Positions 10,355-56,200 of a stretch of DNA of 64,000 bases are shown in pieces (position 1 is the stretch's first letter; every line of letters starts with the position of its first letter). The notes below the pieces were generated by a model. The model searched no databases. It had not been told where the DNA came from and saw nothing but the letters and a program-made list of their open reading frames with translations. The DNA comes from Caldicellulosiruptor kronotskyensis 2002 (GTDB lineage Bacteria > Bacillota > Thermoanaerobacteria > Caldicellulosiruptorales > Caldicellulosiruptoraceae). The translations under genes were made by a program, and so were the position numbers. Where the stretch lies: assembly GCF_000166775.1 (NCBI RefSeq), contig NC_014720.1, positions 124,001-188,000 on the forward strand. Direction: 5' to 3'.

Positions 10355-10356
10355 AA

Positions 10357-27337: not shown

Positions 27338-27372
27338 AAAAATTAAGACAATATTTTGAGGTGTTTTTAAAA

Positions 27373-35395: not shown

Positions 35396-35477
35396 AGTTT
35401 GATTTATGGCAAAAATATAAATTTTGAAGTGCTCTCAAGAGAAAAAGTTGGATATTGTGACAGAAGGGGAGGATAGA

Positions 35478-38400: not shown

Positions 38401-41400
38401 CTCTTAGCTGGACAGCTGTGGAAGGTGCTGCAGGGTACAATATATATCGCTCGGCAAAAAGTGGTGGCCCGTACTCAAAAGTAAATACTGTAGCTGTTAC
38501 TTCCACAACCTATACGGATGCAACTTTGAGTCCAGGAAATACTTACTATTATAGGATTACTGCTGTAAACGCACTTGGAGAATCGGAAATGTCAGAAGAG
38601 ATTTTTGTTACAACACCTACTGAGTTGACTGCTCCATCTGCTCCTACAGGGCTTTACATGGTATCAAGCACCGAAAATTCAATAACTATAAGCTGGACAC
38701 AGGTAGCAGGAGCAACAGGATATAATGTCTACCGCGCAGCTGAAAGAAATGGAACATACACGAAGGTTAATGAATCACCTATAGAAAATGTTAGTTATAC
38801 AGATACAGGTTTGAGTACTGGTGCAGCTTACTTCTATAAAGTTACTGCCGTGAATGCAGCAGGCGAATCAGATATGTCAGATGTTCTGTTTGCTACGACA
38901 TCAGGTTATGGGGTCTCTGGAGGCAGGTCTTACTCTTATATAATAGCGGTATCAAACTCCAAGTTTGTTCGGGTTGATCCTAGCAATGCATGGAATCCTC
39001 TTACTGCATCAGCAAGTGATGCATCTACAGATGCTGAGCTATTTGAAATAGTATTTAAAGCTGATGGCAATGTTGGTTTTGCGTCAAAGGCACTGAATAA
39101 CAACTTAGTATGCGCAGACTCATGGAGTACTCCTGACTATAAACTTCTTCCAAGAAGTAGTTATAGTGCAGATCCAGGTGGTTGGGAAACATTCACATTA
39201 GTGCCGCAAGGAGATGGAACTATTGCAATTAAGGCAAACAATGGTGGAAGGTTCGTAACAGTTGAGCCAACAACAGGTATTTTGAAAGCGACCAGCGCCA
39301 CAGTAGGGGTTAATGAAAAGTTTATCATCGTCACACCATACGCACCTGGCCAACCATCTGTCACTATTGATGAAGTGCTTGATAATTCAGTTACTTTCCA
39401 CTGGTCAGTACCATCATCCTCAGTTGTAGCAGGTTATAATGTATATCGTGCTACCACCAGTGGTGGACCTTATATCAAGCTCAACAAAGCTCTTTTGACA
39501 ACAACCAGTTATACAGATACAAGTATGACAGCAAACACCACCTATTACTATATAGTTGCTGCGGTGAATGCAAGAGGAGAAACAAAGTCTCCAGAAGTAA
39601 TGGTAAAAACACTTAGTGGACCAATACCTGCAATACCAACTGGTTTAGACATAACTTCTTGTACGCAAAATTCTATTACGTTAAACTGGAATGCGGCAGC
39701 AGGTGCACAAAGTTATAATATCTACCGTTCTACAAGTAGATTTGGAACATATGTTAAGATAAACACAGAACCAATAACGTCAACAACCTACACCGATACC
39801 AACTTAACAACCACTTCATATTACTATAAGGTAACAGCAGTCAATGAAAATGGAGAAACCAAAATGTCAGAGCCTATATCTTTAGAAAAGAAATTGTTTG
39901 GTCCAAATGTCTATATATTTGATCCGAATGATGCGCCGGCTGATGTTCAAGCTGTTTGTACAAGCATATTCAAGCAACAAGAGGCAGCTCAATTTGGAAA
40001 TGGTAGATATGCACTTTTATTCAAACCAGGGACATACAGCACTGATGTCAAAGTTGGCTTCTACACCGAAGTACTTGGTTTAGGAAGACTGCCTACAGAC
40101 ACAACCATCCATTCGCTGACTGTTGATGCTGCTTGGATGCCCAATAACAATGCAACATGTAATTTCTGGCGTGGTGCTGCAAATCTTACTGTAGCTACTG
40201 ACACTAAGTGGGCTGTATCACAAGCTGTATCTTTAAGACGCGTAAAAATCAACGGGAAGTTAACATTACATGATGCGGGTGGATGGGCAAGTGGTGGCTT
40301 CTTGGCAGACTCATACATTACAGGTGTTGTAGAATCCGGTTCTCAGCAGCAATGGTTCTCACGAAACACTTACTGGCAAGCTTGGGACGGGCAAGTTTGG
40401 AACATGGTATTTGTAGGTGTTAATAATCCACCACCTGGGACATGGCCTGAGACAAAATATACCACAGTTGAACGAACACCAGTGATGAGGGAGAAGCCGT
40501 TCATTTATATTGACGAAAATGGACACTATAATATTTTTGTTCCAGCTGTCAGATCTGACACGGTAGGAATTTCGTGGAATAACGATATGGGTCCAGGTAC
40601 ATCAATACCAATTGAAGAATTTTACATTGCACACCCGGACAAAGATACAGCTGATACAATTAATGCAGCGCTTGCTCAAGGGAAACACTTGCTTTTGACC
40701 CCTGGTATATATAATTTAGATAAGCCTATTGAAGTTAATAATCCTAATACTGTTGTACTTGGAATTGGATTGGCAACATTAAGAGCTGTCAATGGTTGCA
40801 TACTCTTAAAAGTTGCTGATGTAGATGGAGTTATAATTGCAGGAATCCTATTTGATGCAGGGGAGAAAACATCACCTGTACTGTTAATGGTTGGACAGGA
40901 GAATTCTTCAGCTAATCATTCTAATAAACCAATTACATTAAGCGATCTTTACTTTAGAGTAGGCGGGGCTGGTGTTGGCCGAGCAGATGTATGCGTTGTA
41001 GTAAATAGTAGCAATGTGATCGGAGATCATTTCTGGGTATGGCGTGCTGACCATGGCGATGGCGTTGCTTGGGATTTAAACACTACCAAAAACGGCATGA
41101 TAGTTAATGGCAATGATGTCACTATGTATGCTCTATTTGTTGAACATTTCCATGAATATCATGTGGTATGGAATGGCAGTGGTGGACGCACATATTTCTA
41201 TCAATGTGAGCTACCTTATGATGTACCTAAACAAGAAAGCTGGATGAGCCATAATGGTACAGTAAAAGGCTATGCATCATATAAGGTTGCAGACACAGTA
41301 ACATCTCATGAGGCATGGGGACTTGGAATATATTCATACTTCAGAGATGCACAAGTTGAGTGCAATAGTGCTATAGAGGTTCCAAATAATTCAGGTGTCA

Positions 41401-42785
41401 AAATACACAATGCATGCACTGTAAAGTTAGCGGGTTATGGTGGTATAAAACATGTGGTCAATAACACTGGAGAACCAGTAAATGTAGCAGGACAGAGAAG
41501 CATTGTAACAGAATATTGCAACAATGTTGATCAGCCTGAAATTTCACCATCTACTGGGGTTTATTCTTCAGAGCAGATGGTTACAATAACCTGCTCGACA
41601 GCAGATGCAACTATAAGGTATACCTTAGATGGCACAGAGCCTACTGAGACAAATGGAATAACTTATAGTGGACCATTTACTGTCTCGTTTGGCACAATTG
41701 TTATCAAAGCAAGAGCGTTCAAGGAAGGAATGAATCCCTCCTATGTTACGACTGCTACAATAACTGTTACTGACAGCCTGTCATTTGGAAAGCCTGCTAC
41801 TGCATCGTCCACAAGAAGTGGAAGTGGAAATACTCCCGACAAAGCATTTGACGGGGATTTGAAGACACGCTGGGAGTCAGAACAGAGAGATCCTCAGTGG
41901 ATAATGGTAGATCTTGGACAGAGCTACAGCATTACTGGAGTTAAGATTGTATGGGAGACTGCCGCAGCAAAAGAATATAAGATACAAGTATCAAGTGATA
42001 ATATAAACTGGACTGATGTCTATACAGTTACTGACGGACAACCAGGACACACTTTGGATATAAGTTTTCCATCAGTAGTTGGTAGATATGTAAGAATGTA
42101 TGGTATTTCCAGAGCTACAAGTTGGGGCTATTCCATATATGAATTTGAAGTGTATGGCAACAAAGTTGCTACACCAGTTATAACACCTGCTTCAGGCACA
42201 TATGTGGGATCTCAAATAGTTACAATAACATGTGACACAGAAGGTGCAACAATAAGGTATACCATTGATGGTTCCAATCCAACCCCAAGCTATGGAATTA
42301 TATATGAAGGACCGTTTACGATAACTACAACAACCACCATTAAAGCAATTGCTTATAAAGAAGGTATGTATACATCGAATATGCGGACAGAAACTATAAT
42401 AATCACAAATAACCTGGCACTGAAAAAACAAGCTACAGCATCGACAGGGAACGCAAGCTTAGCATTTGATGGCAATATGAATACGCGATGGGAGTCAGAG
42501 TGGAATGACCCACAATGGATTGCTGTGGATTTAGGTGCTGTTTACAATATTACAGGAATTAAGTTGGTTTGGGAAACAGCTGCTGGGAAGGATTACAAGA
42601 TACAAGTTTCATTGGACGGTCAAACATGGACAGATGTCTTTGAACGCTTAGGTTGGACGGGGGGAACTGACGAAATTACGTTAGACACACCTGCCCAGGG
42701 GCGCTATGTTAGAATGTATGGAACTGCCCGAACAACAGGATATGGTTATTCACTCTGGGAGTTTGAAGTGTATGGGAGCAAGTAA
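35478..42785 (+). CDS. Giant S-layer-anchored beta-1,3-glucanase: SLH3-CBM54-Fn3-GH16-...-GH55-CBM32
   Basis: The protein has 2435 residues from ATG 35478 (GGGGAGG just upstream; TTG 35424 rejected). After a signal peptide (about 1-30) come SLH repeats (33-75, 88-136, 151-205), CBM54 (208-408), a Ser/Thr/Gly linker (413-475), Fn3 (476-568) and GH16 (573-820). GEIDVMEW in GH16 gives nucleophile Glu700 and acid/base Glu705. Next are a trefoil/fascin-like domain (828-956), two Fn3, a second trefoil (1151-1286), two Fn3 (1288-1471) and GH55 (1475-2015), with FVEHFHEY carrying Glu1889. Two chitobiase-C-like plus CBM32 units finish the protein (2020-2435). Endo (GH16) and exo (GH55) beta-1,3-glucanase activities on one wall-bound chain are expected. 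From memory a very similar protein is known in C. kronotskyensis. Confidence 0.93.
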   Translation: MKRGGAKFLSVLLVVLVLLQWTIPLRGIAHGQNDLSGHWAENELKKWAEKGILKGYPDGTIRPNATITRAEFVALIDRICNYVEKSPNVFKDVEPQKWYADVISKAIAAEIIKGDDRGRFRPNDPISRQEAGVIFAKVFNLESANKNVLNKFSDSAEIAEWSKDALSAMVEKGYLIGRKNNRIAPNDYLTRAECVKIIGRIVGELINKAGTYTEKIKGNAVVNTKDVTLNNMSIEGDLYLTEGIGDGDVVLNNVNVKGRAIIKGGGENTITIKDSVIQGSLLIKKANGRIRVVINGSTQIGGTVQLLSGSTLEEDNVTTKGFDKVVVLESVIPGQEVTLKGDFSEVEVKASNVKINIQNGTIALLKINEATKGVSVQLSKDAVINTLNAHKDVSVEGNGTIRSSNIEIKGVSSKTSKETSSQTGRISTGGNETGTLTAGETTSSQGTSTQTGGTTGGSVASFPSTGGTSSSGNVRTAPTTPTNLTVTVSAYNIVDLSWGVVEGATGYNLYRAESVNGQYVKINTSVITTPCYKDTTVAPNKTYYYKVSAINANGESALSNAVNVTTATVPSVGEWKLVWNDEFNGTPGSGLDTSKWVYETGGSGFGNNELQYCTDRTENVYIEQDPNNPSNRFLVIKAIKENYGGKEYTSGRIKTEGKFDFTYGKVEIRAKLPYGGKGIGASFWMLGSNYNTAGWPNCGEIDVMEWNGNTPTKIYGTIHGPGYSGGDGIGTWHEYPGGFSNEFHTYAIEWEPNVIRWYFDGQLYQERRVEDLFGKTWVFVHDFFMILGLGVGGTWVGNPDGTTVFPQKYVIDYVRVYQREGNVYPNPPSRKLVQIKNVENGQFVCADKFNGDYLYANRSSAALWETFEQKDLGNGNIALIALSNYKYVSADNANNQLVASKETIGATETFKVVVNGDGTKSLLCLSNNKYVSVGSSYILEATASTVGNSEKFIIYSTPTTPRGLTATSVRNYSVTLSWTAVEGAAGYNIYRSAKSGGPYSKVNTVAVTSTTYTDATLSPGNTYYYRITAVNALGESEMSEEIFVTTPTELTAPSAPTGLYMVSSTENSITISWTQVAGATGYNVYRAAERNGTYTKVNESPIENVSYTDTGLSTGAAYFYKVTAVNAAGESDMSDVLFATTSGYGVSGGRSYSYIIAVSNSKFVRVDPSNAWNPLTASASDASTDAELFEIVFKADGNVGFASKALNNNLVCADSWSTPDYKLLPRSSYSADPGGWETFTLVPQGDGTIAIKANNGGRFVTVEPTTGILKATSATVGVNEKFIIVTPYAPGQPSVTIDEVLDNSVTFHWSVPSSSVVAGYNVYRATTSGGPYIKLNKALLTTTSYTDTSMTANTTYYYIVAAVNARGETKSPEVMVKTLSGPIPAIPTGLDITSCTQNSITLNWNAAAGAQSYNIYRSTSRFGTYVKINTEPITSTTYTDTNLTTTSYYYKVTAVNENGETKMSEPISLEKKLFGPNVYIFDPNDAPADVQAVCTSIFKQQEAAQFGNGRYALLFKPGTYSTDVKVGFYTEVLGLGRLPTDTTIHSLTVDAAWMPNNNATCNFWRGAANLTVATDTKWAVSQAVSLRRVKINGKLTLHDAGGWASGGFLADSYITGVVESGSQQQWFSRNTYWQAWDGQVWNMVFVGVNNPPPGTWPETKYTTVERTPVMREKPFIYIDENGHYNIFVPAVRSDTVGISWNNDMGPGTSIPIEEFYIAHPDKDTADTINAALAQGKHLLLTPGIYNLDKPIEVNNPNTVVLGIGLATLRAVNGCILLKVADVDGVIIAGILFDAGEKTSPVLLMVGQENSSANHSNKPITLSDLYFRVGGAGVGRADVCVVVNSSNVIGDHFWVWRADHGDGVAWDLNTTKNGMIVNGNDVTMYALFVEHFHEYHVVWNGSGGRTYFYQCELPYDVPKQESWMSHNGTVKGYASYKVADTVTSHEAWGLGIYSYFRDAQVECNSAIEVPNNSGVKIHNACTVKLAGYGGIKHVVNNTGEPVNVAGQRSIVTEYCNNVDQPEISPSTGVYSSEQMVTITCSTADATIRYTLDGTEPTETNGITYSGPFTVSFGTIVIKARAFKEGMNPSYVTTATITVTDSLSFGKPATASSTRSGSGNTPDKAFDGDLKTRWESEQRDPQWIMVDLGQSYSITGVKIVWETAAAKEYKIQVSSDNINWTDVYTVTDGQPGHTLDISFPSVVGRYVRMYGISRATSWGYSIYEFEVYGNKVATPVITPASGTYVGSQIVTITCDTEGATIRYTIDGSNPTPSYGIIYEGPFTITTTTTIKAIAYKEGMYTSNMRTETIIITNNLALKKQATASTGNASLAFDGNMNTRWESEWNDPQWIAVDLGAVYNITGIKLVWETAAGKDYKIQVSLDGQTWTDVFERLGWTGGTDEITLDTPAQGRYVRMYGTARTTGYGYSLWEFEVYGSK

Positions 42786-43373: not shown

Positions 43374-46300
43374 ATGAAAAAATTTAAAAAAGTAATTGCA
43401 CTATTTTTGTGTATTGCGTTCATTGAGGGGTTTTTCTTCTCTTCTCCAGTAATATCGAAAGCCGAGACAAATTTAGCATTGAACAAAGCAGTGACAGCAT
43501 CATCTACGCAGGCTGGGTTGGATGTAAAGAGTGCAGTAGATGGGAATGTAAACACCAGATGGGGGTCAGACTGGTCAGACCCGCAGTGGATAAGTGTGGA
43601 TTTAGGGAGTGTGTACAGTGTAAATAAGGTAGTACTCAGATGGGAGACGGCATATGGTAAGTCGTACAAGATCCAGGTATCGACGGACGGGATGAACTGG
43701 ACGGATGTGTATTCGACCACAGCAGGAGATGGAGGAGTGGACGAGATAGTATTCAGTCCAGTGAATGCGAGATATGTGAGGATGTATGGGACAGAGAGAG
43801 GGACAGGTTGGGGTTATTCACTATGGGAGTTTGAGGTGTATGGTGGAGCAGCAGTTCAGGATACGACATGCGGAGGTAATTTAGCATTGAACAAAGCAGT
43901 GACAGCATCATCTACGCAGGCTGGGTTGGATGTAAAGAGTGCAGTAGATGGGAATGTAAACACCAGATGGGGGTCGAACTGGTCAGACCCGCAGTGGATA
44001 AGTGTGGATTTAGGGAGTGTGTACAGTGTAAATAAGGTGGTACTGAGATGGGAGACGGCATATGGTAAGTCGTACAAGATCCAGGTATCGACAGACGGGA
44101 TGAACTGGACGGATGTGTATTCGACCACAACAGGAGATGGAGGAGTGGACGAGATAGTATTCAGTCCAGTGAATGCGAGATATGTAAGGATGTATGGGAC
44201 AGAGAGAGGGACAGGCTGGGGTTATTCGCTGTGGGAGTTTGAGGTGTATGATAGCGAGGAAGTCGAGAAAGTAGCAACACCCGTAATAACACCTGGTACT
44301 GGGACATACACATCGGCGCAGACTGTGAGCATTACATGTGCGACGGCAGGGGCGACGATAAGGTACACAACAGATGGTACAGAGCCAACACCGGCAAATG
44401 GCATAGTATACAGTGGACCGTTTACAGTGACAGCAACAACCACAATAAAGGCGATAGCATATAAGGATGGAATGCTAAACTCAGATGTGGCAACAGCAGT
44501 GATAACGATAAATAGCACAATTCTTAGCGCACCTACAGGGCTTAAAGTGTCATCTGTTACCACTACATCAATAAGTCTGGAATGGTCTCCTGTCCCTGGA
44601 GTAAGTGGATATAATATATATCGTTCGTTTGTACCGGAAGGACCATATGTTAAAGTTAATTCGTCACCTATTACTTCTACAAATTATACAGACAGTGGAT
44701 TAGATAGCGCTACCTATTATTACAAAGTTTCAGCTGTGAATGCAAGCGGGGAGTCAAATCTATCGGAAGCAGTATCTGCAAAAACAGTGCTTTATTTTGG
44801 TCCGCATGTAAAAATATTTGATCCGTCAATGTCATCAGCCGAGATACAAAGCATATGTGATACCATATTTGCAGAAATGGAAAAGAATCAGTTTGGAACA
44901 CAGCGATATGCTCTTTTCTTTAAACCAGGTTCCTACAGTGTTAATTTAAGTGTGGGATTCTACACATCAGTTCATGGTTTGGGTAAAAGACCAGATGATG
45001 TAACAATAACAGGTTCAGTTCGTTGTGAAGCTGATTGGATGGACGGAAATGCCACATGTAATTTCTGGAGATCTGTTGAGAATCTTACAGTAATACCAAC
45101 ATATAGAGCAAACAATTTAGTATCAGCAGGGACAGAAACATGGGCAGCATCACAAGCTGCTCCTTTAAGGCGTGTACACATAAAAGGTGGCCTTTCGTTA
45201 TGGGATCCTGGTTCAAACTATGATAAAAGCTGGTCAAGTGGTGGATTTATTGCTGACTCAGTGATTGATGGGCAGATTACCTCTGGTTCACAACAGCAAT
45301 ACTTTACAAGAAATACTCAAATGGGATCGTGGAGCGGCTCGAACTGGAACATGGTATTTGTTGGCGATATAGGTGCGCCCGCTGAACAGTGGCCAAATCC
45401 AGCATACACGGTAGTTAATCAAGCACCAGTAATACGTGAAAAGCCGTTCATTTATATTGACGATTCTGGAAATTACGCAGTATTTGTACCTGCTGTTAGA
45501 ACTAACGCGCAAGGGATTAGTTGGGCGAATGGAATGGGAGAAGGAACTTCCTTATCTATGGACCAATTTGTTGTTGCGCATCCTGAGACATCAACTGCTG
45601 CAACGTTGAATCAAGCTCTAAGTCAGGGTAAGAATATTTTGTTCACACCGGGTATATATCATCTTAGTGAACCACTGCGCGTATCAAAACCAAACACAGT
45701 TATATTAGGTCTTGGGTTAGCAACTTTAGTACCCGATAATGGAACGCCAGCTATGACTGTTGCTGATGTTGATGGAGTAATAATTGCAGGAATACTTTTT
45801 GATGCTGGGCCAAATAATTCACCAGTATTGTTAGAAGTTGGACCTGAGGGTAGTACCCAGAGTCATGCTTCAAATCCAATTACACTCAGTGATTTGTTCT
45901 TTAGAGTAGGTGGTGCAGGTGTTGGAAAAGCGGATGTTTGTATTAAGATTAATAGCAATGACGTAATAGGTGATCATTTCTGGGTATGGCGTGCAGACCA
46001 CGGTGATGGTGTAGGCTGGACAATAAATACCACAAAGAATGGAATTATTGTAAATGGCAACAATGTAATCATCTACGGACTGTTTGTTGAACATTTTCAT
46101 GAATATCAGACGTTATGGAATGGAGAGAACGGGCGTGTATACTTCTATCAAAGTGAAATTCCGTATGATGTACCAAACCAAGAGAGTTGGATGGATGGAA
46201 GTGAAAACGGATATGCTTCATACAGAGTAGCTGATTCTGTAAATTCTCATCAGGCATGGGGATTAGGAGTGTACTCCTACTTTAGAGACGCGGATGTGAA

Positions 46301-47096
46301 ATGCAATAGTGCAATTAAGGTACCAGCTAAACCAGGTGTGAGAATTTATCATGCTTGTTCAGTTTACCTTGCAGGATATGGAGAAATAACCCATGTTGTC
46401 AACCATACAGGGGACACTGCAAAGGCGGGCTATATGAGACAAACTATCGATGAATATTGTAACAACGTAGAACAACCAGATATAATGCCAAAGTCTGCAG
46501 TATACGGGACACCACAGACTGTTACAATCTCCACTGTAACACCAGGTGCAACAATCAGATATACAACAGATGGTTCTGAACCGACACCTACTACTGGAAT
46601 GATTTACACGGGTCCCTTTAGCGTATCATCTACTACTACTATTAAAGCAATCGCATATAAGGAAGGTATGAATAATTCGCGAATAGCGACTACAACGATT
46701 AAAATTGATCCGGCTTATGCAAATGACATAGCGTTGAACAAGCCGGCAACCGCTTCATCAGGTAATGCAAGTCTTGCATTTGATGGTGATACAACCACGC
46801 GCTGGGAGTCTGCTTGGAGTGATCCACAATGGATAATGGTTGACTTGGAAGCTGTTTATAGCATAACAGGAGTTAAGTTAGTATGGGAAACTGCAGCTGC
46901 ACGTGATTACAAGATTCAAGTATCATTGGATAAAGTAACCTGGATGGATGCATTTGTACGAACAAACGGAACGGGAGGCACAGAAAATATAACCTTTAAC
47001 TCACCAGTTCAAGGTAGGTACGTACGTATGTATGGTATCGCGAGAACAACAAATTATGGATACTCACTATGGGAATTTGAGGTTTATGGTAATTAG
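43374..47096 (+). CDS. Secreted GH55 exo-beta-1,3-glucanase with three CBM32 domains
   Basis: The 1240-residue protein has a signal peptide (about 1-31), two near-identical CBM32/F5-8C domains (33-165, 169-295), a chitobiase-C-like domain (298-380), Fn3 (384-472) and GH55 (475-1032). FVEHFHEY, with Glu906, lies in the twin beta-helix at the point where the GH55 acid is expected. A chitobiase-C-like domain (1034-1110) and a divergent CBM32 (1117-1240) close the chain. GH55 enzymes release glucose or laminaribiose from beta-1,3-glucan ends. There is no SLH, so the protein is soluble or substrate-bound. Its GH55 half is a paralogue of that in the preceding giant protein. GAGGAGG precedes the ATG. 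Confidence 0.9.
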   Translation: MKKFKKVIALFLCIAFIEGFFFSSPVISKAETNLALNKAVTASSTQAGLDVKSAVDGNVNTRWGSDWSDPQWISVDLGSVYSVNKVVLRWETAYGKSYKIQVSTDGMNWTDVYSTTAGDGGVDEIVFSPVNARYVRMYGTERGTGWGYSLWEFEVYGGAAVQDTTCGGNLALNKAVTASSTQAGLDVKSAVDGNVNTRWGSNWSDPQWISVDLGSVYSVNKVVLRWETAYGKSYKIQVSTDGMNWTDVYSTTTGDGGVDEIVFSPVNARYVRMYGTERGTGWGYSLWEFEVYDSEEVEKVATPVITPGTGTYTSAQTVSITCATAGATIRYTTDGTEPTPANGIVYSGPFTVTATTTIKAIAYKDGMLNSDVATAVITINSTILSAPTGLKVSSVTTTSISLEWSPVPGVSGYNIYRSFVPEGPYVKVNSSPITSTNYTDSGLDSATYYYKVSAVNASGESNLSEAVSAKTVLYFGPHVKIFDPSMSSAEIQSICDTIFAEMEKNQFGTQRYALFFKPGSYSVNLSVGFYTSVHGLGKRPDDVTITGSVRCEADWMDGNATCNFWRSVENLTVIPTYRANNLVSAGTETWAASQAAPLRRVHIKGGLSLWDPGSNYDKSWSSGGFIADSVIDGQITSGSQQQYFTRNTQMGSWSGSNWNMVFVGDIGAPAEQWPNPAYTVVNQAPVIREKPFIYIDDSGNYAVFVPAVRTNAQGISWANGMGEGTSLSMDQFVVAHPETSTAATLNQALSQGKNILFTPGIYHLSEPLRVSKPNTVILGLGLATLVPDNGTPAMTVADVDGVIIAGILFDAGPNNSPVLLEVGPEGSTQSHASNPITLSDLFFRVGGAGVGKADVCIKINSNDVIGDHFWVWRADHGDGVGWTINTTKNGIIVNGNNVIIYGLFVEHFHEYQTLWNGENGRVYFYQSEIPYDVPNQESWMDGSENGYASYRVADSVNSHQAWGLGVYSYFRDADVKCNSAIKVPAKPGVRIYHACSVYLAGYGEITHVVNHTGDTAKAGYMRQTIDEYCNNVEQPDIMPKSAVYGTPQTVTISTVTPGATIRYTTDGSEPTPTTGMIYTGPFSVSSTTTIKAIAYKEGMNNSRIATTTIKIDPAYANDIALNKPATASSGNASLAFDGDTTTRWESAWSDPQWIMVDLEAVYSITGVKLVWETAAARDYKIQVSLDKVTWMDAFVRTNGTGGTENITFNSPVQGRYVRMYGIARTTNYGYSLWEFEVYGN
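43473..43880 (+). repeat. CBM32-coding 408-bp repeat, copy A
   Basis: This is the first of five near-identical 408-bp units (136 codons: a CBM32 domain plus a GGAAVQDTT-type linker). The identity extends to synonymous positions, which marks recent duplication or gene conversion. Confidence 0.9.
43881..44249 (+). repeat. CBM32-coding repeat, copy B
   Basis: The second unit in the GH55 gene starts exactly 408 bp after copy A. It differs by a handful of bases, for example an aspartate-to-asparagine change in the GSxWSDPQW segment. It ends at EFEVY before a different linker. Confidence 0.9.
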
Positions 47097-47122
47097 TGGA
47101 TGATATTGCAAAGAACATAATA

Positions 47123-47153
47123 GCCCCCAGAGCGTTAAAATTCCTCTGGGGGG
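47123..47153 (+). other. GC-rich hairpin between GH55 and GH81 genes
   Basis: A 9-bp stem (47124-47132 with 47144-47152) has an 11-nt loop and no T-run after it. It could attenuate or stabilise a GH55-GH81 transcript rather than end it. Confidence 0.55.
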
Positions 47154-47240
47154 TGACAATTAATTTAATAACAAAATTTGGTGGATTAACTAGTTGAAAT
47201 AAAAAACTTAAAAAATTAATTCAAGTGGGGTTGGTAAGAG

Positions 47241-50200
47241 ATGAGCAAATCCAGAGTAGCTAAATATTCGAAAAGATTTCTGATTTTTATATATATTATT
47301 TGCTTGATAAACTTGGTTCTCCCACTAAATTACCTAAGAGCAAATGCTGAAACGTCGTATTTAATCTCTGTAAATAGACCTTGCTATGCTTCATCTGTCA
47401 ACGGAAGTGATACTCCTGAGCGAGCAACTGATGGTGATTTAGGAACATATTGGCAGGCTGCGTGGAACATCGATAATCAATGGATTGATGTAGATATTGG
47501 TAAAACAGCACAGATAAACAAGATAGTATTTAAGTGGCAAAGTGAATTAAGTTATGCTAAAAGATACAAAATTCAAGTTTCAGATGATGAAATTAACTGG
47601 CAAACGGTATATGTTAATGAAAATGGGACTGGTGGAGTACAAGTAACAGGACAAAACGGAATGGTGTATTATGAAGAGGAAATAACCATAAGTGCTACTG
47701 GACGCTACGTACGTATGTTTGCTGAAAAATCGGCATCGGGCTATGGAGTTGCACTCCGCGAGTTTGAGGTATATGGTTATGGTGGAGTGGTTTCACCTCC
47801 GACACAGGCAGTCAATCTTGCCTTAGGTAAATCATGCAGTGCATCATCCACAGCGACACCATGGTGGGCTCAACCCGGACAGTTAGATCCAAATAAAGCT
47901 GTTGATGGAGATAAATCAACATATTGGCAGTCAAAAGAAGGCAATGATCAATGGTTTCAAGTAGATCTTGGAAATATATATACTATCGGCAAGGTGAATA
48001 TTATATGGGGTGAAGGAGAATTTGGGCGAATATATGACATCCAGGTATCCACAGATGGAATTAATTGGGAGACTGTATACAGACAAATATACGGAAATGG
48101 TGATCCTGAAAGCATTCCAGTCTATGCGGTTTGTAGGTATGTGAGAATGAAAGGAATAGCTATGGGAAGAGGCGGCGGATATTCGATTAAAGAGTTTGAA
48201 GTATATCAGTATGTACCAGGAGATCCACAAATAAGGCATCAAATTCCTTCATTACCATCTAAACAGATAGTAAGTGTTGGTAAAGGAAGCTATTTAATAG
48301 ACGATGTAAATTGTGCTCAGCCGAGATATCCAAAATATGTAACAAAAAATATTAAAACACCCATCCCGTCAAATGACTGGTGGACTTCTGTGATATACAA
48401 GCGATTGAGTGATGGGATGCCAGCTTTGCCTTTGGTATATTGGTATTTTGATAACGGTTTAGGGTTTTACTATGCAAGCGATTTGTTTACTGCACCGAAT
48501 AATGGGGGAATGGATACAAAGTGCAGAAATATGGATCTATTCGTAAATACATCAAGCATTATTGGTACCCCTTCGGCGAAGTTAGATGGCTACGGGGATT
48601 GGTCAGTTACTGTTGTGTTCAGTGATGACGATACCCCAAAAATGAGATCAACGCTTGTTAAAGGTTCTCCATACGTTTACAATACATTCACTGATCCAAA
48701 TTCAGTTGAAGTGTGGAGCCCGTCTCTGGTTTGCATATTCGATGAGAATGGCAATCCTATTCTTACAAACGATGGAGATTCAATAACAACTGATCATATA
48801 GGCGTTGAAGTTACAAATGTAAATACAGCTCCGGAGCCTAAGACGCTTGTAAGGTCTTATGGAATATTTGCACCTCCAGGAACTGTATTTACAAGAGTTG
48901 GTAGCAAAATAAAGATAAAATTAGGAAGTGGAGAAAACTATTTAGTAATTGGCCTTTTACCTGAGAGAAAGAATTTAAACTATTTATATCAACATGCATA
49001 TGCGTTTGTTATCGACACAACTGTTAGTTATAGATTTGATCAGAGCACATCTACAGTGTATACAACATTTACTGACAAAGTTGTTCTAAAAAGACAAGGA
49101 TTCTCATCACAAACTCTTATGGCACTGTTTCCTACACAATGGAAATATACAAATGCATCATTTGCCCCTGTAACATATAATTCTGCACGAGGTTTAATGA
49201 AGGTTATTGAAGGAAATTCATTTACAACTCAGCTAAAATTTTACGGTATAACGCCCTCATTTGGCGAGCCCATTGAATCAAATACCTACAGTAGAGAAAA
49301 AATGAAAGAATATCTGAATGCATTTAAAGAAAGCGTAAGCAGAGATTATTGGGTTGCAGATCCTTATTGGCAAGGGAAAAAGACTCATCCGTTAGCAATG
49401 GGAATATTAATAGCTGAGCAAATTGGAGATTATGAAACAAGAGATTTATTTATAAGCATATTGAGAAAAATTCTTATAAATTGGCTTACTTATGATGGCA
49501 ATGACGATTATCCATACTACACATATTATTCTTCTAGCTGGGGCACTCTAAACGGCGATGGTGGAGATCATGGAATGGCAATAAATCTTTCTGACCATCA
49601 CTTCTTATGGGGCTACTTTATATTTCCGGCAGCAGTGCTAGCCTCCTATGATAAAAATTTTGTAAGAGATTACGGTGGTATGATTGAACATATGATTCGT
49701 GATTGTATGAATCCATCGAAAACAGATTCTATGTATCCGTATATGAGGAATTTTGATCCATACGAAAGCCATTCATGGGCAGGGGGTTATGGCGATAATC
49801 AAAGTGGAAACAATCAGGAGTCTACGTCAGAGGCGACATTTGCATGGGCTGGTCTTTATTTATGGGGATTAGTAACAGGAAATGACACGTACAGAGATGC
49901 TGGAATTTGGGGATTTACCTCTGAGGTAAATGCGATTGAGCAATATTGGTTTAACTATGACCAAGATAACTGGGCTGAGGATTATGCATCTGGTGCAGTT
50001 GGAATACTTTGGGGAACTGCTTACACAAATGGGACATACTTCTCAGCAAATCCATGTTGTATTTATGGTATTCATTGGTTACCCGTTACTCCAGTATTGA
50101 CTTACTTAGGATATAAACCAGAAATAGCTGCAAGAATTTACTCAATGTTCAGAAACGATCTCGAGAAATATGTAGCAAATAACCCAAATGATCCAGAAGG

Positions 50201-52160
50201 ATGGTTCCATATTACGTGGGCTTATCAGTCATTATTTGATCCGGAAGGAGTAATGAATAAGTGGGATGATTCAAAGTTGCCGGATGATGAAAGATTTAAT
50301 ACTTATTGGTTTGTACAAAATATGAGTGCGAAAGGTTATCGTTCAACTGAAATATGGTCTAATAATTGGACTTGCTATCAAGTATTCAAAAAAGATGGCA
50401 AATATAGTGCTGTAGTTTGGAACCCCCTGGATTCAGTTCAATACGTAGAGTTTTGTAATAAAGATGGTGTAGTAGGCTCAGTATATGTGCCACCACATGT
50501 GACGGTTGTTGTCAATCCTTTGGTTCACAATGGTATGGCTCAAGTAACAATTCCACCAGCACCTGCACCCGATCCTGCTCCACATGCTGTTCCAGGGTTA
50601 ATTGAGGCTGAGGACTATTATACAAACTTTAGTTGTAGTAAGGTTCCGTGTTCTGAAGGAGGATATGCTATTGGATATATTGATAATGGTGATAAGCTGG
50701 TATATGAGGTAAATGTCGAAGAGGAAGGAGACTATACTGTTCAATATAGAATAATTAATCGAAGTTCAAACCCGGGAGTAATCTTTTTAAAATCAGATCT
50801 TGCTATTGATCAGATTTTGGCAATGACAGAAGTACCCATTAGTAACGATTGGACGACAATTGCTTCAGATGTTCATCTTAAAGCTGGCACCCAAAAAATT
50901 ATCCTGTATTTCAATAAAGGAGGATTTGACTTAAATTGGATTAAATTTACTAAAAAAGCATTATCCCAAAACTTAGCATTGAACAAAGCAGTGACAGCAT
51001 CATCTACGCAGGCTGGGTTGGATGTAAAGAGTGCAGTAGATGGGAATGTAAACACCAGATGGGGGTCAGACTGGTCAGACCCGCAGTGGATAAGTGTGGA
51101 TTTAGGGAGTGTATACAGTGTAAGCAAGGTAGTACTCAGATGGGAGACGGCATATGGTAAGTCGTACAAGATCCAGGTATCGACGGACGGGATGAACTGG
51201 ACGGATGTGTATTCGACCACAGCAGGAGATGGAGGAGTGGACGAGATAGTATTCAGTCCAGTGAATGCGAGATATGTGAGGATGTATGGGACAGAGAGAG
51301 GGACAGGTTGGGGTTATTCACTATGGGAGTTTGAGGTGTATGGTGGAGCAGCAGTTCAGGATACGACAGGCGGAGGTAATTTAGCATTGAACAAAGCAGT
51401 GACAGCATCATCTACGCAGGCTGGGTTGGATGTAAAGAGTGCAGTAGATGGGAATGTAAACACCAGATGGGGGTCAGACTGGTCAGACCCGCAGTGGATA
51501 AGTGTGGATTTAGGGAGTGTATACAGTGTAAGCAAGGTAGTACTCAGATGGGAGACGGCATATGGTAAGTCGTACAAGATCCAGGTATCGACAGACGGGA
51601 TGAACTGGACGGATGTATATTCGACCACAGCAGGAGATGGAGGAGTGGACGAGATAGTATTCAGTCCAGTGAATGCGAGATATGTAAGGATGTATGGGAC
51701 AGAGAGAGGAACAGGTTGGGGTTATTCACTATGGGAGTTTGAGGTATATGGTGGAGCAGCAGTTCAGGATACGACAAGCGGAGGTAATTTAGCATTGAAC
51801 AAAGCAGTGACAGCATCATCTACGCAGGCTGGGTTGGATGTAAAGAGTGCAGTAGATGGGAATGTAAACACCAGATGGGGGTCGGACTGGTCAGACCCGC
51901 AGTGGATAAGTGTGGATTTAGGGAGTGTATACAGTGTAAGCAAGGTGGTACTGAGATGGGAGACGGCATATGGTAAGTCGTACAAGATCCAGGTATCGAC
52001 GGACGGGATGAACTGGACGGATGTATATTCGACCACAGCAGGAGATGGAGGAGTGGACGAGATAGTATTCAGTCCAGTGAATGCGAGATATGTAAGGATG
52101 TATGGGACAGAGAGAGGAACAGGCTGGGGTTATTCGCTGTGGGAGTTTGAGGTGTATTAA
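47241..52160 (+). CDS. Secreted GH81 endo-beta-1,3-glucanase with CBM6 and five CBM32 domains
   Basis: The 1639-residue protein has a signal peptide (about 1-36), two divergent CBM32 domains (40-183, 190-325) and GH81 (about 330-1096). The expected acid Asp785 lies in LSDHHFLWGYF. The E-x3-E pair Glu860/Glu864 lies in NQESTSEA, as in characterised GH81 enzymes. A CBM6-like domain (1118-1240; IEAEDY start, DLNWIKF end) is followed by three almost identical CBM32 repeats (1244-1639). The last repeat stops right after EFEVY. It has no SLH domain. GH81 enzymes cut long beta-1,3-glucan chains such as those in yeast and fungal walls. It follows the GH55 gene by 144 bp on the same strand. Confidence 0.92.
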   Translation: MSKSRVAKYSKRFLIFIYIICLINLVLPLNYLRANAETSYLISVNRPCYASSVNGSDTPERATDGDLGTYWQAAWNIDNQWIDVDIGKTAQINKIVFKWQSELSYAKRYKIQVSDDEINWQTVYVNENGTGGVQVTGQNGMVYYEEEITISATGRYVRMFAEKSASGYGVALREFEVYGYGGVVSPPTQAVNLALGKSCSASSTATPWWAQPGQLDPNKAVDGDKSTYWQSKEGNDQWFQVDLGNIYTIGKVNIIWGEGEFGRIYDIQVSTDGINWETVYRQIYGNGDPESIPVYAVCRYVRMKGIAMGRGGGYSIKEFEVYQYVPGDPQIRHQIPSLPSKQIVSVGKGSYLIDDVNCAQPRYPKYVTKNIKTPIPSNDWWTSVIYKRLSDGMPALPLVYWYFDNGLGFYYASDLFTAPNNGGMDTKCRNMDLFVNTSSIIGTPSAKLDGYGDWSVTVVFSDDDTPKMRSTLVKGSPYVYNTFTDPNSVEVWSPSLVCIFDENGNPILTNDGDSITTDHIGVEVTNVNTAPEPKTLVRSYGIFAPPGTVFTRVGSKIKIKLGSGENYLVIGLLPERKNLNYLYQHAYAFVIDTTVSYRFDQSTSTVYTTFTDKVVLKRQGFSSQTLMALFPTQWKYTNASFAPVTYNSARGLMKVIEGNSFTTQLKFYGITPSFGEPIESNTYSREKMKEYLNAFKESVSRDYWVADPYWQGKKTHPLAMGILIAEQIGDYETRDLFISILRKILINWLTYDGNDDYPYYTYYSSSWGTLNGDGGDHGMAINLSDHHFLWGYFIFPAAVLASYDKNFVRDYGGMIEHMIRDCMNPSKTDSMYPYMRNFDPYESHSWAGGYGDNQSGNNQESTSEATFAWAGLYLWGLVTGNDTYRDAGIWGFTSEVNAIEQYWFNYDQDNWAEDYASGAVGILWGTAYTNGTYFSANPCCIYGIHWLPVTPVLTYLGYKPEIAARIYSMFRNDLEKYVANNPNDPEGWFHITWAYQSLFDPEGVMNKWDDSKLPDDERFNTYWFVQNMSAKGYRSTEIWSNNWTCYQVFKKDGKYSAVVWNPLDSVQYVEFCNKDGVVGSVYVPPHVTVVVNPLVHNGMAQVTIPPAPAPDPAPHAVPGLIEAEDYYTNFSCSKVPCSEGGYAIGYIDNGDKLVYEVNVEEEGDYTVQYRIINRSSNPGVIFLKSDLAIDQILAMTEVPISNDWTTIASDVHLKAGTQKIILYFNKGGFDLNWIKFTKKALSQNLALNKAVTASSTQAGLDVKSAVDGNVNTRWGSDWSDPQWISVDLGSVYSVSKVVLRWETAYGKSYKIQVSTDGMNWTDVYSTTAGDGGVDEIVFSPVNARYVRMYGTERGTGWGYSLWEFEVYGGAAVQDTTGGGNLALNKAVTASSTQAGLDVKSAVDGNVNTRWGSDWSDPQWISVDLGSVYSVSKVVLRWETAYGKSYKIQVSTDGMNWTDVYSTTAGDGGVDEIVFSPVNARYVRMYGTERGTGWGYSLWEFEVYGGAAVQDTTSGGNLALNKAVTASSTQAGLDVKSAVDGNVNTRWGSDWSDPQWISVDLGSVYSVSKVVLRWETAYGKSYKIQVSTDGMNWTDVYSTTAGDGGVDEIVFSPVNARYVRMYGTERGTGWGYSLWEFEVY
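50973..51380 (+). repeat. CBM32-coding 408-bp repeat, copy C
   Basis: The first of three tandem units in the GH81 gene is almost identical to copies A and B, 7.5 kb upstream. Position 50973 is exactly 7500 bp after copy A. Confidence 0.9.
51381..51788 (+). repeat. CBM32-coding 408-bp repeat, copy D
   Basis: The middle unit starts 408 bp after copy C. Only scattered single-base differences are visible from copies C and E. Confidence 0.9.
51789..52157 (+). repeat. CBM32-coding repeat, copy E
   Basis: The last unit starts 408 bp after copy D and lacks the linker, because TAA follows directly after the EFEVY codons. Confidence 0.9.
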
Positions 52161-52453
52161 GGATAAATAATGCTGGCTTAATAAACAGACAAAAGTCTGA
52201 GCATATAATGGCAAAATTAATTTCAAATTTAACAGTGTAAGCTGAATACAATGCAGTCCCGACAGAATCAGCAATTACATTTAAATGGCATTAATTGATT
52301 TTTTAGCGGGACACTTTTTACCGGGTGTCCCGTGCCTATTTTTCAACAAAATTGAGACCTTTTCTAAAATTCAGTGTATTTACTTATAAGATACTATTAA
52401 AGTAGAATGAAATATGTAAAAGCTATCTAAAAACAAAGGGAGGCAGATTAAAA
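52161..52453. other. Intergenic region after the GH81 gene
   Basis: The 293-bp stretch has no gene. It holds a weak CAGAC-AAAA-GTCTG hairpin (52186-52199), the terminator at 52306-52346 and then AT-rich DNA leading to GGGAGG before the GH30 start. A GATACTAT at about 52390-52397 could be a -10 box, but I see no firm -35. Confidence 0.5.
52306..52346 (+). terminator. Rho-independent terminator ending the beta-1,3-glucanase run
   Basis: An 8-bp GC-rich stem (52307-52314 with 52325-52332, extended by a G-T pair) has a 10-nt loop and is followed by TGCCTATTTTTC. Confidence 0.75.
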
Positions 52454-53794
52454 ATGTTCAAGAAAATTACATGTTACATAACGGCAAAGGATTGCAGCAT
52501 TCCCCTGCAGCAAGTAGACAATATAAAAGAGTGTGAGAAAATAGAAAAGGAGTCTGTTATAACAATTGAGCCATCCACTACATTTCAAGAGGTATTAGGT
52601 TTTGGTGGGGCACTTACAGAGGCTGCCGCGGTAAATATACTGTCACTTTTGCCACACCAGCAAGAAGAGATTTTAAGAGGGTACTTTGACCCAAAAGAGG
52701 GGCTTGGCTATAAGCTTTGTAGAATTCACATGAACAGCTGTGATTTTTGTGTTGATAGCTACAGCTGTGATGATGTTGAAGGTGATACCGATCTAAAACA
52801 TTTTAACATTGAAAGAGACAAAAAGATGGTAATTCCTCTTTTAAAAAGAATAAAGGAATATTGTCAAGATCTCAAAATTCTCGTTTCACCTTGGAGTCCG
52901 CCTGCATGGATGAAGACAAACGGTGATATGTGCCATGGTGGAAAGCTAAAGGATGAGTATAAAAAAACATGGGCAAAGTTTTTCTGCAAATTCATAAAAG
53001 CATATAAAGAAGAAGGAATTGAGATATGGGCTGTGACAGTTCAAAATGAGCCGATGGCAACTCAAGTGTGGGAGTCGTGCATATACACAGCTGAAGAAGA
53101 AAGAGATTTTGTGAAGGATTACTTAGGACCAACTCTTGAAGAAGAAGGGCTGTCCCATATAAAAATACTTATATGGGACCACAACAAAGATATCATATAT
53201 GACAGGGTAAAAACAATTTTGAGTGACAAAGAAGCTGCTAAGTATGTATGGGGAGTTGCATTCCACTGGTATGGAGGAGACCATTTTGACCAGCTCAAAA
53301 AAATAAAAGAAGAGTTTCCTGATGTCAATTTGGTGTTTACCGAAGGTTGTCAGGAAGGTGGAGTAAAGCTTGGTTCTTGGGAGCTTGGTGAAAGGTATGC
53401 TCATGAGATAATTGGTGATTTTAACAGCTACACGATTGGATTTATGGATTGGAATATTGTTCTTGACACAATGGGTGGACCTAATCATGTAGGGAACTTT
53501 TGCGACGCTCCGATAATAGTTGATAAAGACCAGAAAAAGATTCACTATCAAAATGCATATTATTATATAGGGCATTTTTCTAAATTCATAAGGCCGGGAG
53601 CTAAAGTAGTCAAAAGTAGCTGTAGTAGTTCAAAACTTGAAGTTTTGGCAGCGAAGAACCAGGACGATACTTTAGCAGTGGTTGTCTTTAATAAAAACCC
53701 AGAGGAAATAGAGTTTAGTATGGTTATTGGAGAGAAAATATTCTGTGGAAAGTCTCCAGCAAGGTCTATATTGACCATTGTTCTGGAAAAGTAA
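52454..53794 (+). CDS. GH30 beta-glucosidase/beta-1,6-glucanase-like enzyme, cytosolic
   Basis: The 446-residue retaining glycosidase is of the glucosylceramidase-like GH30 group. It is a TIM barrel with VLGFGGALTEAAA near the start, SPWSPPAWMKT, acid/base Glu199 in VQNEP and nucleophile Glu297 in VFTEGCQ, followed by a C-terminal beta-domain. It has no signal peptide. GH30 members include beta-1,6-glucanases, beta-glucosidases and beta-xylosidases. Next to the laminarinase genes, removal of beta-1,6-linked glucose from imported branched oligosaccharides is attractive but unproven. The ribosome-binding site is AAAGGGAGG. It is convergent with the AraC gene. Confidence 0.85.
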   Translation: MFKKITCYITAKDCSIPLQQVDNIKECEKIEKESVITIEPSTTFQEVLGFGGALTEAAAVNILSLLPHQQEEILRGYFDPKEGLGYKLCRIHMNSCDFCVDSYSCDDVEGDTDLKHFNIERDKKMVIPLLKRIKEYCQDLKILVSPWSPPAWMKTNGDMCHGGKLKDEYKKTWAKFFCKFIKAYKEEGIEIWAVTVQNEPMATQVWESCIYTAEEERDFVKDYLGPTLEEEGLSHIKILIWDHNKDIIYDRVKTILSDKEAAKYVWGVAFHWYGGDHFDQLKKIKEEFPDVNLVFTEGCQEGGVKLGSWELGERYAHEIIGDFNSYTIGFMDWNIVLDTMGGPNHVGNFCDAPIIVDKDQKKIHYQNAYYYIGHFSKFIRPGAKVVKSSCSSSKLEVLAAKNQDDTLAVVVFNKNPEEIEFSMVIGEKIFCGKSPARSILTIVLEK

Positions 53795-53809
53795 AATATA
53801 AATAAAATG

Positions 53810-53838
53810 GGTGGGCGAAAAAGCCCGCCTTTAATTTT
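53810..53838. terminator. Bidirectional terminator between GH30 (+) and AraC regulator (-)
   Basis: A 7-bp GC-rich stem (53810-53816 with 53823-53829) has loop GAAAAA. TTTAATTTT follows on the + strand and CCATTTTATTT on the minus strand, so it can serve both convergent genes. Confidence 0.8.
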
Positions 53839-56200
53839 GAGAGCTATAAAGAGTCCTGTACTTTGTTGGTGAAAGTCCCACCTTTTTCTTAAAGACATTT
53901 ATAAAACTGTTAGGGTATATGTATCCTACTTTTAAAGCAATTTCATTTACAGAATAGTTGGTTTGCGTGAGCAATAGCTTAGCTTTTTCTATTCTCAGGT
54001 GAGTAATATAATCGCTCAGGTTTTGACCAGTTTTTTCTTTAAACAATGATGATAAATACTGAGGAGTTATATTAAACTTTTCAGCAATCAAAGATAAAGA
54101 CAGGTTTGGGTCATTATACATCTCATCTATGTATGTCTTTACTTTTTCAACAAGAGTAAAACGGAAAGATAACTGATTATTCTTTACAAATTCTGCAAGA
54201 CTTATAAAATTGTCTTGAATCTTAAAAAACAAATCATCAAGCGTGAGTGTATTTGTTTTTGTTATGATTTCATTTTCAATGATTTTAAACAGCTCTGAAG
54301 AAGATTTATAGTTAATAAGCCTGCAAGCATTTTCGTAGAGAATATAAAGATTGACACATAAAAGCTTTGCTTGAATTATTGGAATGTTGTCAGACACAAA
54401 TATTTTAGAGTGGATATTTTTAAAGATTTCTTCCAAAGATGCTTTGTTACCGTTTAAGATACACTCAAGAATTCTATTTTCCATTTCAGGAGTGATAAAT
54501 GATAAAGTTTCATCCTTCAGCTGAGATAAGGCATCACTAAATTTATAGATTTTGACGTTACCTGATATAAACTTTAAACTCAAGGCCTTTTCTGCTTCTT
54601 CAAAGCAGGTATTGATGGCAGAAATTCCTTTTTTAATTGTGCTCACACCAATGGTAAGAAGAATTGCGAAGTTGCTTTGGATAAAGTTTTTGCCATATTC
54701 CAATCTACCCACGATAGAATCTACCGTGTCGTTATGGTCAACAATATTTAATATTATTCCCAACTTTTTTTCTCCTAAAATCACGTTGTAAACTTTGTTA
54801 TTCTGGCTTGTTAGCACCTCGTTTAAGATATTGAAAATTATAAAACGGACAAAGCTATAATCTGTAATATCTTTTTGAAGCTCAAAGTTCTGACAATCAT
54901 ATATCTCAACAAGTATTACCATAAATAAGTCTGAATCAAATTTTATCTGATATTTTTCAAACACTTCTTTTTCGGATATAGCTGAGGGGATATTGCCTAC
55001 CAACAAATGTTCTAAAAACCAGTTTTGCAAGGTAGGCAGAAATTCATTTATTTGTTTTCTCAAAAACTCTTCTTCTGCTACTAGTAAACTTGCAAGTTCT
55101 TTTAATTTTATCATTTCGCTTTTATCTTCAATGTTTTCTATACCCTCTGAATATGGATAGGACAATTTTTGTTTTTTAAACTTGGAAACCAGAATATTTT
55201 TGATTTCATCTACAGGTCTGTAGCTTTTTAAAGAAAGAAGCACAATTGTTGGTAGTCCTAAGATCAGTGAGAAGATAAAGTAAAGTAGCAGGTATATCTT
55301 CATATTATTTATAGGTTTAAAAAAAGACTGCGAAGATATTGCTATTATGTATTTCCACTGGTACATATCACTTTTGTAATACAAAATTATCTTATCTTTT
55401 TTAGTCTTCATCTCGGTTAGAGAATTTTCTGTGAAAGAGTTTTTAATAGTGTCTTTCAATAAAGAATCAATATTTTTGTCTGGAACATACTGGGTTAAAG
55501 TTGTATTGTCAGAGTTCAAAACATATATGTTACTGTTTTCATAAAGAACATTGCTTTTGATAAAATCATTTAACTTTTCTTCATCTAACAGGATAAATAA
55601 AGTTGCCTTCTTGTCCTGAAAAGTCCAATAGGGCAGTGAATGCAAGAAAAGTATTGTGCTTCTTGGTTGACCTCTAATTAGAAAACTCATGGGCATAAAA
55701 TACCTGTTATACGATTTATTCAAAAGATTTAGCCAATCTAAATAATCTGTATCTATTGGTCGAATTATGTAATCGTAATATAACTTACTTGATTCAAAAA
55801 AATTTGGGGTTATAATGATATTTTCAAAAGGTATGTAAATTCCAATTTCTAAGATGAATGGAGAAGTATAATAAAGCATAAGCTGCTGGGTAAAGTTGCG
55901 GATATCAAGTATGATGTCATTTTTAGAGGCAAGGAGATTGTGGTTTGATATTAAAGTCAAATAAAATGGACTTGCATTTATGCTTTCCTCTATTAGCTCT
56001 AAAGGTCTTAAGGTTACATCATTTATTTTTGAAGGCAGATTTGTCATGATTGCTTTGCTATATGATTTTAAGTTGTTTAAAGAAATGGAATATCCATTGT
56101 AATAAGCATATAACCCTGCTACAAATGGAATGAAAAACACCAAAAAATATGATAATAATAACTTTACCAAAAAATCTCTATTTTTTAGAAATTTGAGCAT
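53831..56200 (-). CDS. Membrane-bound AraC-family regulator (YtdP-like)
   Basis: This 789-residue one-component sensor/regulator has a TM helix (about 11-32), an extracellular sensor domain (about 35-295), a second TM (about 300-322), a long cytoplasmic middle region with GGDEF-like remnants as in YesN proteins, and a C-terminal AraC double HTH (about 690-787). It has no kinase or receiver domain, so the signal passes through the membrane directly. It is divergent from the LplA-like binding-protein gene by 255 bp, and probably activates that importer and the beta-glucuronidase when their sugar is outside the cell. Confidence 0.88.
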   Translation of the reverse strand: MLKFLKNRDFLVKLLLSYFLVFFIPFVAGLYAYYNGYSISLNNLKSYSKAIMTNLPSKINDVTLRPLELIEESINASPFYLTLISNHNLLASKNDIILDIRNFTQQLMLYYTSPFILEIGIYIPFENIIITPNFFESSKLYYDYIIRPIDTDYLDWLNLLNKSYNRYFMPMSFLIRGQPRSTILFLHSLPYWTFQDKKATLFILLDEEKLNDFIKSNVLYENSNIYVLNSDNTTLTQYVPDKNIDSLLKDTIKNSFTENSLTEMKTKKDKIILYYKSDMYQWKYIIAISSQSFFKPINNMKIYLLLYFIFSLILGLPTIVLLSLKSYRPVDEIKNILVSKFKKQKLSYPYSEGIENIEDKSEMIKLKELASLLVAEEEFLRKQINEFLPTLQNWFLEHLLVGNIPSAISEKEVFEKYQIKFDSDLFMVILVEIYDCQNFELQKDITDYSFVRFIIFNILNEVLTSQNNKVYNVILGEKKLGIILNIVDHNDTVDSIVGRLEYGKNFIQSNFAILLTIGVSTIKKGISAINTCFEEAEKALSLKFISGNVKIYKFSDALSQLKDETLSFITPEMENRILECILNGNKASLEEIFKNIHSKIFVSDNIPIIQAKLLCVNLYILYENACRLINYKSSSELFKIIENEIITKTNTLTLDDLFFKIQDNFISLAEFVKNNQLSFRFTLVEKVKTYIDEMYNDPNLSLSLIAEKFNITPQYLSSLFKEKTGQNLSDYITHLRIEKAKLLLTQTNYSVNEIALKVGYIYPNSFINVFKKKVGLSPTKYRTLYSSQN

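Follow-up and report, generated by a model that had tools for sequence, protein, structure and literature searches.

The beta-1,3-glucanase locus

The DNA analysed here is a stretch of 64,000 nucleotides (the window) from Caldicellulosiruptor kronotskyensis 2002, contained in a closed single-contig genome of 2.84 Mb. Three consecutive genes in the window encode beta-1,3-glucanase-type enzymes, with SLH-GH16-GH55, GH55 and GH81 architectures, and no paper on this GH55/GH81 locus was found in the literature searched. The SLH-GH16-GH55 gene (35424-42785) is the upstream neighbour of the GH55 gene, and Pfam identifies in it two diverged CBM32 domains with a CHB_HEX domain between them (41778-42770, forward strand). 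The next gene (43374-47096, forward strand) encodes a protein of 1240 amino acids, assigned from its open reading frame, Pfam matches, GH55 homology and a tree; we take its family name, GH55, from the sequence-only reading and from established knowledge, and homology supports it. The order of the protein is signal peptide, CBM32 A, CBM32 B, CHB_HEX, Fn3, GH55, CHB_HEX and a final CBM32 (Pfam, homology). The GH81 gene (47241-52160, forward strand, 1639 amino acids; open reading frame and Pfam Glyco_hydro81C) encodes CBM32 N1, CBM32 N2, GH81, a linker and then CBM32 C, D and E (Pfam).

The C-terminal CBM32 of the GH55 gene (46728-47084, forward strand) is of the other CBM32 type described below, and its sister is the last CBM32 of the GH16-GH55 gene (42414-42770; support 97/95). 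These two domains end their respective genes, each after a CHB_HEX, and share 75% protein identity; the pair suggests an older module exchange between the neighbours.

Five near-identical CBM32 units in two genes

Units A (43473-43841) and B (43881-44249) directly follow the signal peptide of the GH55 protein, whereas C (50973-51341), D (51381-51749) and E (51789-52157) form the end of the GH81 protein, with the stop codon immediately after E. All five are direct copies on the forward strand, spaced by 408, 7092, 408 and 408 bp, which bears out the sequence-only reading as to their number and place. That reading had taken the repeat unit to be 408 bp long; the period is indeed 408, but the near-identical block is the 369 bp of the CBM32 itself. 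A 39-bp spacer follows only A, C and D (43842-43880, 51342-51380 and 51750-51788, forward strand, with T, G and A, respectively, at base 397 of the unit), so that 408 bp is the period of the arrays. In both genes near-identity runs from the first codon of the domain to its last tyrosine codon and does not extend past either domain edge; B and E themselves end at the domain edge. The assignment to CBM32 (F5/8 type C fold) follows from PF00754 and PF22633, both scoring far above cut-off over the whole domain.

Among units A-E, for which the data come from one strain, 16 of 369 sites vary and 13 of these are third codon positions, with 3-14 differences between any two units. The proteins differ at 3 of 122 positions (dN <= 0.011), and dS (Nei-Gojobori) ranges from 0.025 (A-C) to 0.149, synonymous sites being 85-97% identical; the claimed match at third positions thus holds. 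Between the units and every other CBM32 of these proteins, silent sites are saturated or nearly so (dS is 2.4 for one of these domains and undefined for all others; 51-63% nucleotide identity), and the same applies to the CBM32s in the rest of the genome. Synonymous divergence among the aligned units, proposed earlier as a check, is therefore far below that to other CBM32 domains, which are strongly diverged as had been noted. A search for the same unit in other CAZyme genes had likewise been proposed as a check, and its outcome is negative: the 2.84 Mb contain no further copy above 68% identity, and the only traces are one 63-bp and one 92-bp fragment at 72-76%. No unit match above 69% was found among 11 other genomes of the genus, and a search of a plasmid collection with the unit gave no match. 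Statements about the whole genome in this work rest on about 0.45 Mb of sampled stretches together with whole-genome searches.

Purifying selection on the protein could by itself keep copies alike, and the few amino acid differences and low dN are what it would give, but it does not account for the identity at synonymous sites or for the silent variants common to both genes. Conservation of the protein only is excluded by dS, and the chance that it explains the units is negligible. Five near-identical 408-bp units are also hard to assemble from short reads. Several observations speak against an assembly artefact. Each unit has its own variant set, the three spacers differ from one another at base 397, and no informative site of A, C, B or E is more than about 160 bp away from unique flanking sequence or a spacer tag. 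The genome is a single closed contig, and outgroups independently have 2 and 3 modules at the same positions. With the units individually tagged, duplication during assembly was rejected, and we hold an artefact to be very improbable.

Variants shared across the genes form a mosaic

The sequence-only reading had pointed to single-base variants common to the two genes, and these are readily seen. A is nearest to C, with 3 differences, and B is nearest to E, with 8; B and E, the last units of their genes, share 96G, 159G, 165G, 336C, 348G and 351G. Other variants group the units differently: A and B, both in the GH55 gene, share 141G/152A/153T against C, D and E, a patch of 13 bp; D and E share 237A/330A; site 306 joins A with C; and B and D share 213A. 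Unit D resembles C towards its two ends and E in between (237-330), and unit B has two private replacements, D33N and A84T. Of the 78 pairs of informative sites (13 sites), 44 are incompatible; even the most favourable single tree takes 19 steps to explain the 13 sites, 6 of them extra changes. The sharpest conflict is the gene-specific 13-bp patch, flanked as it is by sites 96 and 159, at each of which B agrees with E. Since the variants conflict with any single tree, the units are mosaics. Patch 141-153 is suggestive of a contiguous tract, but the positions of incompatible sites along the unit show no significant clustering (order permutation p = 0.21), so discrete conversion tracts are a reading of this pattern rather than a demonstrated feature.

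These data bear on a simpler history, in which a two-unit array was copied once between the genes and D arose by tandem duplication, with no continuing exchange. The nearness of A to C and of B to E is what copying a block of the first and last units predicts, and the spacer is present in both genes. Under one tree, however, the A/B patch set against the six B-E sites, the D/E pair 237A/330A and the B/D variant 213A would all need parallel changes. Some exchange after copying is thus required, which makes this history different in degree from the explanation that we prefer, namely that the copies overwrite one another; without such exchange we judge it improbable.

Outgroups indicate overwriting at fixed positions

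Two outgroups are informative, a contig of a Clostridiaceae metagenome-assembled genome (JAAYAD010000085.1, here L009) and Clostridium paridis (L076). L009 has an adjacent GH55-GH81 pair in the same order (GH81 identity 73%), with the same module counts as the window, two N-terminal CBM32s in GH55 and two N-terminal plus three C-terminal ones in GH81. L076 carries the closest GH55 (72% identity; the sister sequence in the tree, with 95% support). Two CBM32s stand at its N-terminus, and the next domain appears to be the same CHB_HEX-type one. The L009 GH55 groups with other paralogues, and its orthology with the window GH55 is not strict, so that the argument for the GH55 gene rests mainly on L076.

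In a tree of 26 CBM32 rows the domains fall into two well-supported groups (99/99). The first holds A-E together with the last GH81 CBM32 of L009. In the second are the GH55 N-terminal pairs of L009 and L076, as well as modules one and two of the C-terminal GH81 array of L009. Units A-E are monophyletic (100/99), and positional orthology is rejected: for A and B with the GH55 N-terminal pair of L076 (p-AU 1e-8) or of L009 (p-AU 7e-7), and for C-E with modules c1-c3 of L009 (p-AU 2.7e-5). A control is built into the GH81 gene, where N1 (47364-47771, forward strand) and N2 (47817-48203, forward strand) are near-identical to nothing and behave orthologously, pairing with their L009 counterparts (100/99 and 100/100).

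That the outgroups match the window in counts and positions implies that modules were overwritten and not multiplied. Copy number is unchanged, at two in GH55 (L009, L076) and three C-terminal in GH81 (L009), as non-reciprocal exchange leaves it, and the copy-number change by slippage that had been suggested finds no support in these counts. Unit E is the likely founder position, the only one that has the same CBM32 type in the outgroup GH81. On these sequence comparisons, four of the five positions were overwritten, and the simplest source is the type that occupies E. A search of 84,980 genomes with the protein sequence of the unit gave its best match, at 77%, in the last CBM32 of the L009 GH81. 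Placement of A-E next to L009 c3 has an AU value of 0.37 and the rival placement with the other GH81 one of 0.175, two alternatives between which the tree does not decide, so that E itself may be a later arrival by import.

The hallmarks of concerted evolution are present, with within-genome copies more alike than positional counterparts and silent sites homogenised too, and concerted evolution across the two genes is well supported. Taking together the low dS, the 44 incompatible pairs and the rejected positional orthology, we consider it probable that the CBM32s of these two adjacent beta-1,3-glucanase genes evolve in concert through gene conversion or overwriting, as the sequence-only reading had supposed for the two loci. 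The five copies would then be near-identical because they overwrite one another.

A likely sequence of events can be outlined. The outgroup state suggests an ancestral GH81 with the repeat-type CBM32 at its last position, E, and a different CBM32 type at its other two C-terminal positions and at both N-terminal positions of GH55. Within GH81, E-type copies would have taken the places of C and D, and in GH55 a block of two units plus spacer those of A and B. Both genes have the spacer, which shows that no less than a unit-spacer-unit block moved into or out of the GH55 gene. The replacements would most likely have come about through ordinary RecA-dependent recombination between the direct repeats, 7.1 kb apart, in a non-reciprocal form (gene conversion or equivalent double crossovers). 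Short exchanges at a later stage, both inside each gene and across the two, would have mixed the variants into the mosaic observed.

Predicted function and comparison with known systems

The closest solved relatives of the units are Paenibacillus CBM32s (PDB 4zy9, 2rv9 and 4zz5; E = 6e-40, whole module aligned). These structures are those of the DD1/DD2 tandem pair of the Paenibacillus sp. IK-5 chitosanase/glucanase (PMC12154041). Compared with DD1/DD2, the window units stand in a different enzyme context, and their ligand specificity is a prediction. The B-specific replacement D33N presumably maps near a ligand-contact loop of these Paenibacillus modules. Judging from domain content, the arrays probably tether the GH16, GH55 and GH81 enzymes to insoluble beta-1,3-glucan or to fungal wall, and the benefit of homogenisation is likely to be one binding specificity at all array positions, giving avidity for insoluble beta-glucan or the fungal cell wall.

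The kind of process is already known, since recombination after duplication has been proposed for the repeats of the Caldicellulosiruptor glucan degradation locus (GDL; PMC7142884), and three identical GH5 domains are reported in another study (PMC4892530). In the present genome, 11 CBM3s lie within 6 of 246 nucleotides of one another, and 10 identical CBM3 proteins occur in five cellulase genes. The CBM3, GH48 and GH5 modules of the GDL resemble the present case in being near-identical and common to neighbouring multi-domain enzyme genes of one genome; the difference is that the window module is a CBM32 in beta-1,3-glucanases, with outgroups that show replacement at a fixed module number. Concerted evolution in prokaryotes has been described for whole genes (Wang and Chen 2018; PMC6053082). 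There, as here, paralogues within a genome are more alike than positional orthologues between species, but in the window single modules are homogenised inside otherwise diverged genes.

The locus offers a clear example of overwriting across two genes that leaves module number and position fixed and spares internal controls. It indicates how all arrays of an enzyme set can retain a single binding specificity, and it is a warning that in such enzymes module trees depart from gene trees. As far as the literature searched shows, the outgroup demonstration is new, as is the copy-number-linked shift at silent sites described below.

Among 57 loci with several CBM32s, two show domain-limited CBM32 sharing between adjacent genes beside GH55: a Streptomyces locus (L071, 6086-6454 and 8348-8716; 97.3% nucleotide identity) and a Catenulispora locus (L027, 9139-9504 on the reverse and 10001-10366 on the forward strand; 98.9%).

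A silent-site signature of the repeated modules

The codons of the units differ from those of the flanking parts of the same genes, with a GC3 of 0.47-0.53 against 0.27-0.29. Nearly all of the rise is in G, with G3 going from 0.17 to 0.34-0.42 and T3 from 0.35 to about 0.19 while C3 is unchanged. GAG, CAG, AAG, GTG, GTA, GGG, ACG, TCG and ATA are enriched in the units and NNT codons are depleted. The codon skew noted in the sequence-only reading is therefore real, and so is its enrichment in GTG, but AGG (0.20 vs 0.24) and CGG (0 vs 0.02), which it also named, are not enriched.

The cellulase locus of this genome has a similar signature, with G3 at 0.33 in repeated segments and 0.16 in unique ones and a switch at module borders. 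Codon-choice deviations of its homogenised modules correlate with those of the CBM32 unit at r = 0.77, against a background maximum of 0.766 in 670 other 122-codon windows, of which only 3 reach 0.70. At the same locus in 8 genomes, taking repetition as a proxy for recombination rate, GC3 is 0.42-0.49 in repeated and 0.27-0.31 in unique parts; the pattern holds in 53 of 53 genes, which share ancestry and are not independent. Across the cellulase loci G3 rises from 0.16 in unique to about 0.34 in repeated parts, while C3 moves from 0.11-0.12 to 0.12-0.13. In L167-L169 (G000:C1:996001-1044000) and L204-L222, covering eight genomes of the genus, repeated G3 is about 0.30-0.37 against 0.15-0.19 in unique parts, with within-gene switches and flat C3.

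Two modules differ reciprocally in copy state between genomes. A module of G007, presumably of GH44 type, is present there in two copies (G3 0.28) and is single in six species (0.15-0.16). A GH5-type module shows the opposite distribution, with several copies in six species (0.25-0.29) and one in G007 (0.20). In the windowed comparison of G007 with the others, G3 is 0.38/0.39 for modules multi-copy in both, 0.20/0.17 for those single in both, 0.28/0.15 for multi/single and 0.20/0.27 for single/multi, the last two cells comprising only two independent modules. Counter-cases are GH48, of which G011 has one copy, and GH5, of which one copy lies in the part of G009 covered; in both G3 is still high, and both are very close in sequence to multi-copy homologues. 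The two GH44-type copies of G007 (G007:C1:2194310-2195608, reverse strand, and 819340-820638, forward strand) are 99.1% identical in DNA although 1.4 Mb apart and on opposite strands. A substitution-direction analysis, with small counts, implies equilibrium GC3 values of 0.49-0.59 for GH48, 0.34-0.49 for CBM3 and 0.37-0.42 for the single-copy GH9.

Three simple causes of the signature were considered and rejected. Translational selection does not fit, because EF-Tu, EF-G, RpoB and RpoC have a G3 of 0.17-0.21, and the correlation of their codon deviations is as low as 0.30 for the units and 0.13 for the repeated segments of the cellulase loci. Repetition alone does not suffice, as transposase copies lack the G3 rise and one IS family of G007 is C3-rich instead. 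Simple GC-biased conversion would be strand-symmetric, raising both G and C, and C3 is flat.

The signature could also have come with the unit, if a CBM32 of foreign origin, with codon habits of its own, was imported recently and spread through the five positions, a possibility that concerns the source of the unit and is compatible with overwriting. The unit GC3, against about 0.28 in the same-gene flanks, is the highest in the sample, the locus is absent from all 11 other genomes of the genus, and 2 of 222 sampled genes share the codon signature, both plausible imports. These are a bacteriocin-type peptidase-containing ABC exporter (L137:3133-5334, reverse strand) and a TnpB-like gene (L138:9840-11195, reverse strand), which are G3-rich and possibly imported, and their sharing of the signature keeps a foreign origin alive. 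Set against it, no donor was found, the best match having 77% protein identity; CBM3, GH48 and GH5 modules carry the same signature across many species of the genus, and in the two reciprocal cases it follows copy number; and a homologous CBM32 is already at the E position of the outgroup GH81. We regard such an import as rather unlikely.

We tentatively put forward, as a proposal somewhat less probable than its negation, that homogenisation itself shifts silent sites in Caldicellulosiruptor-type genomes, about doubling G3, depleting T and leaving C flat in CBM32, CBM3, GH48, GH5 and GH44 modules, with switches inside genes at module borders. The shift might come about through strand-asymmetric biased conversion, or through selection made effective by many exchanging copies. 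GC-biased gene conversion has been proposed for bacteria (Lassalle et al. 2015; PMC4450053) and is disputed (e.g. PMC8153448). The present pattern resembles it in that GC3 is raised where segments recombine, irrespective of the codons that highly expressed genes use, and differs in that coding-strand G goes up and T down with C hardly changed, which a symmetric GC bias does not predict. If true, the proposal would provide a bacterial counterpart of the composition change in converting gene families, and the silent-site shift lends itself to studying, in nature, whether gene conversion in bacteria is biased, which is a matter of dispute.

An island absent from a close relative

The three glucanase genes lie in a 23.8-kb block (28512-52346), together with a two-component system and an ABC sugar transporter, which is absent as a unit from the close relative G002, where the matches to window positions 27332-28511 and 52347-54129 lie 50 bp apart. 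No GH55 was found in the 11 other genomes of the genus, nor in the other 397 genomes sampled across the phylum. The dS of the single-copy GH9 between this genome and G002 is 0.07, so that, with an arrival of the block after the split from G002, most of the divergence among A-E (dS up to 0.149) would predate the arrival. Much of the homogenisation would then have taken place in a donor lineage, if the island did arrive after that split; the alternative is loss of the block in G002.

A second block, of 14.9 kb, from 54130 to about 69051 (G000 coordinates, past the end of the window), is also missing in G002. Both blocks contain beta-1,3-glucanase genes, and each is replaced in G002 by 33-50 bp.
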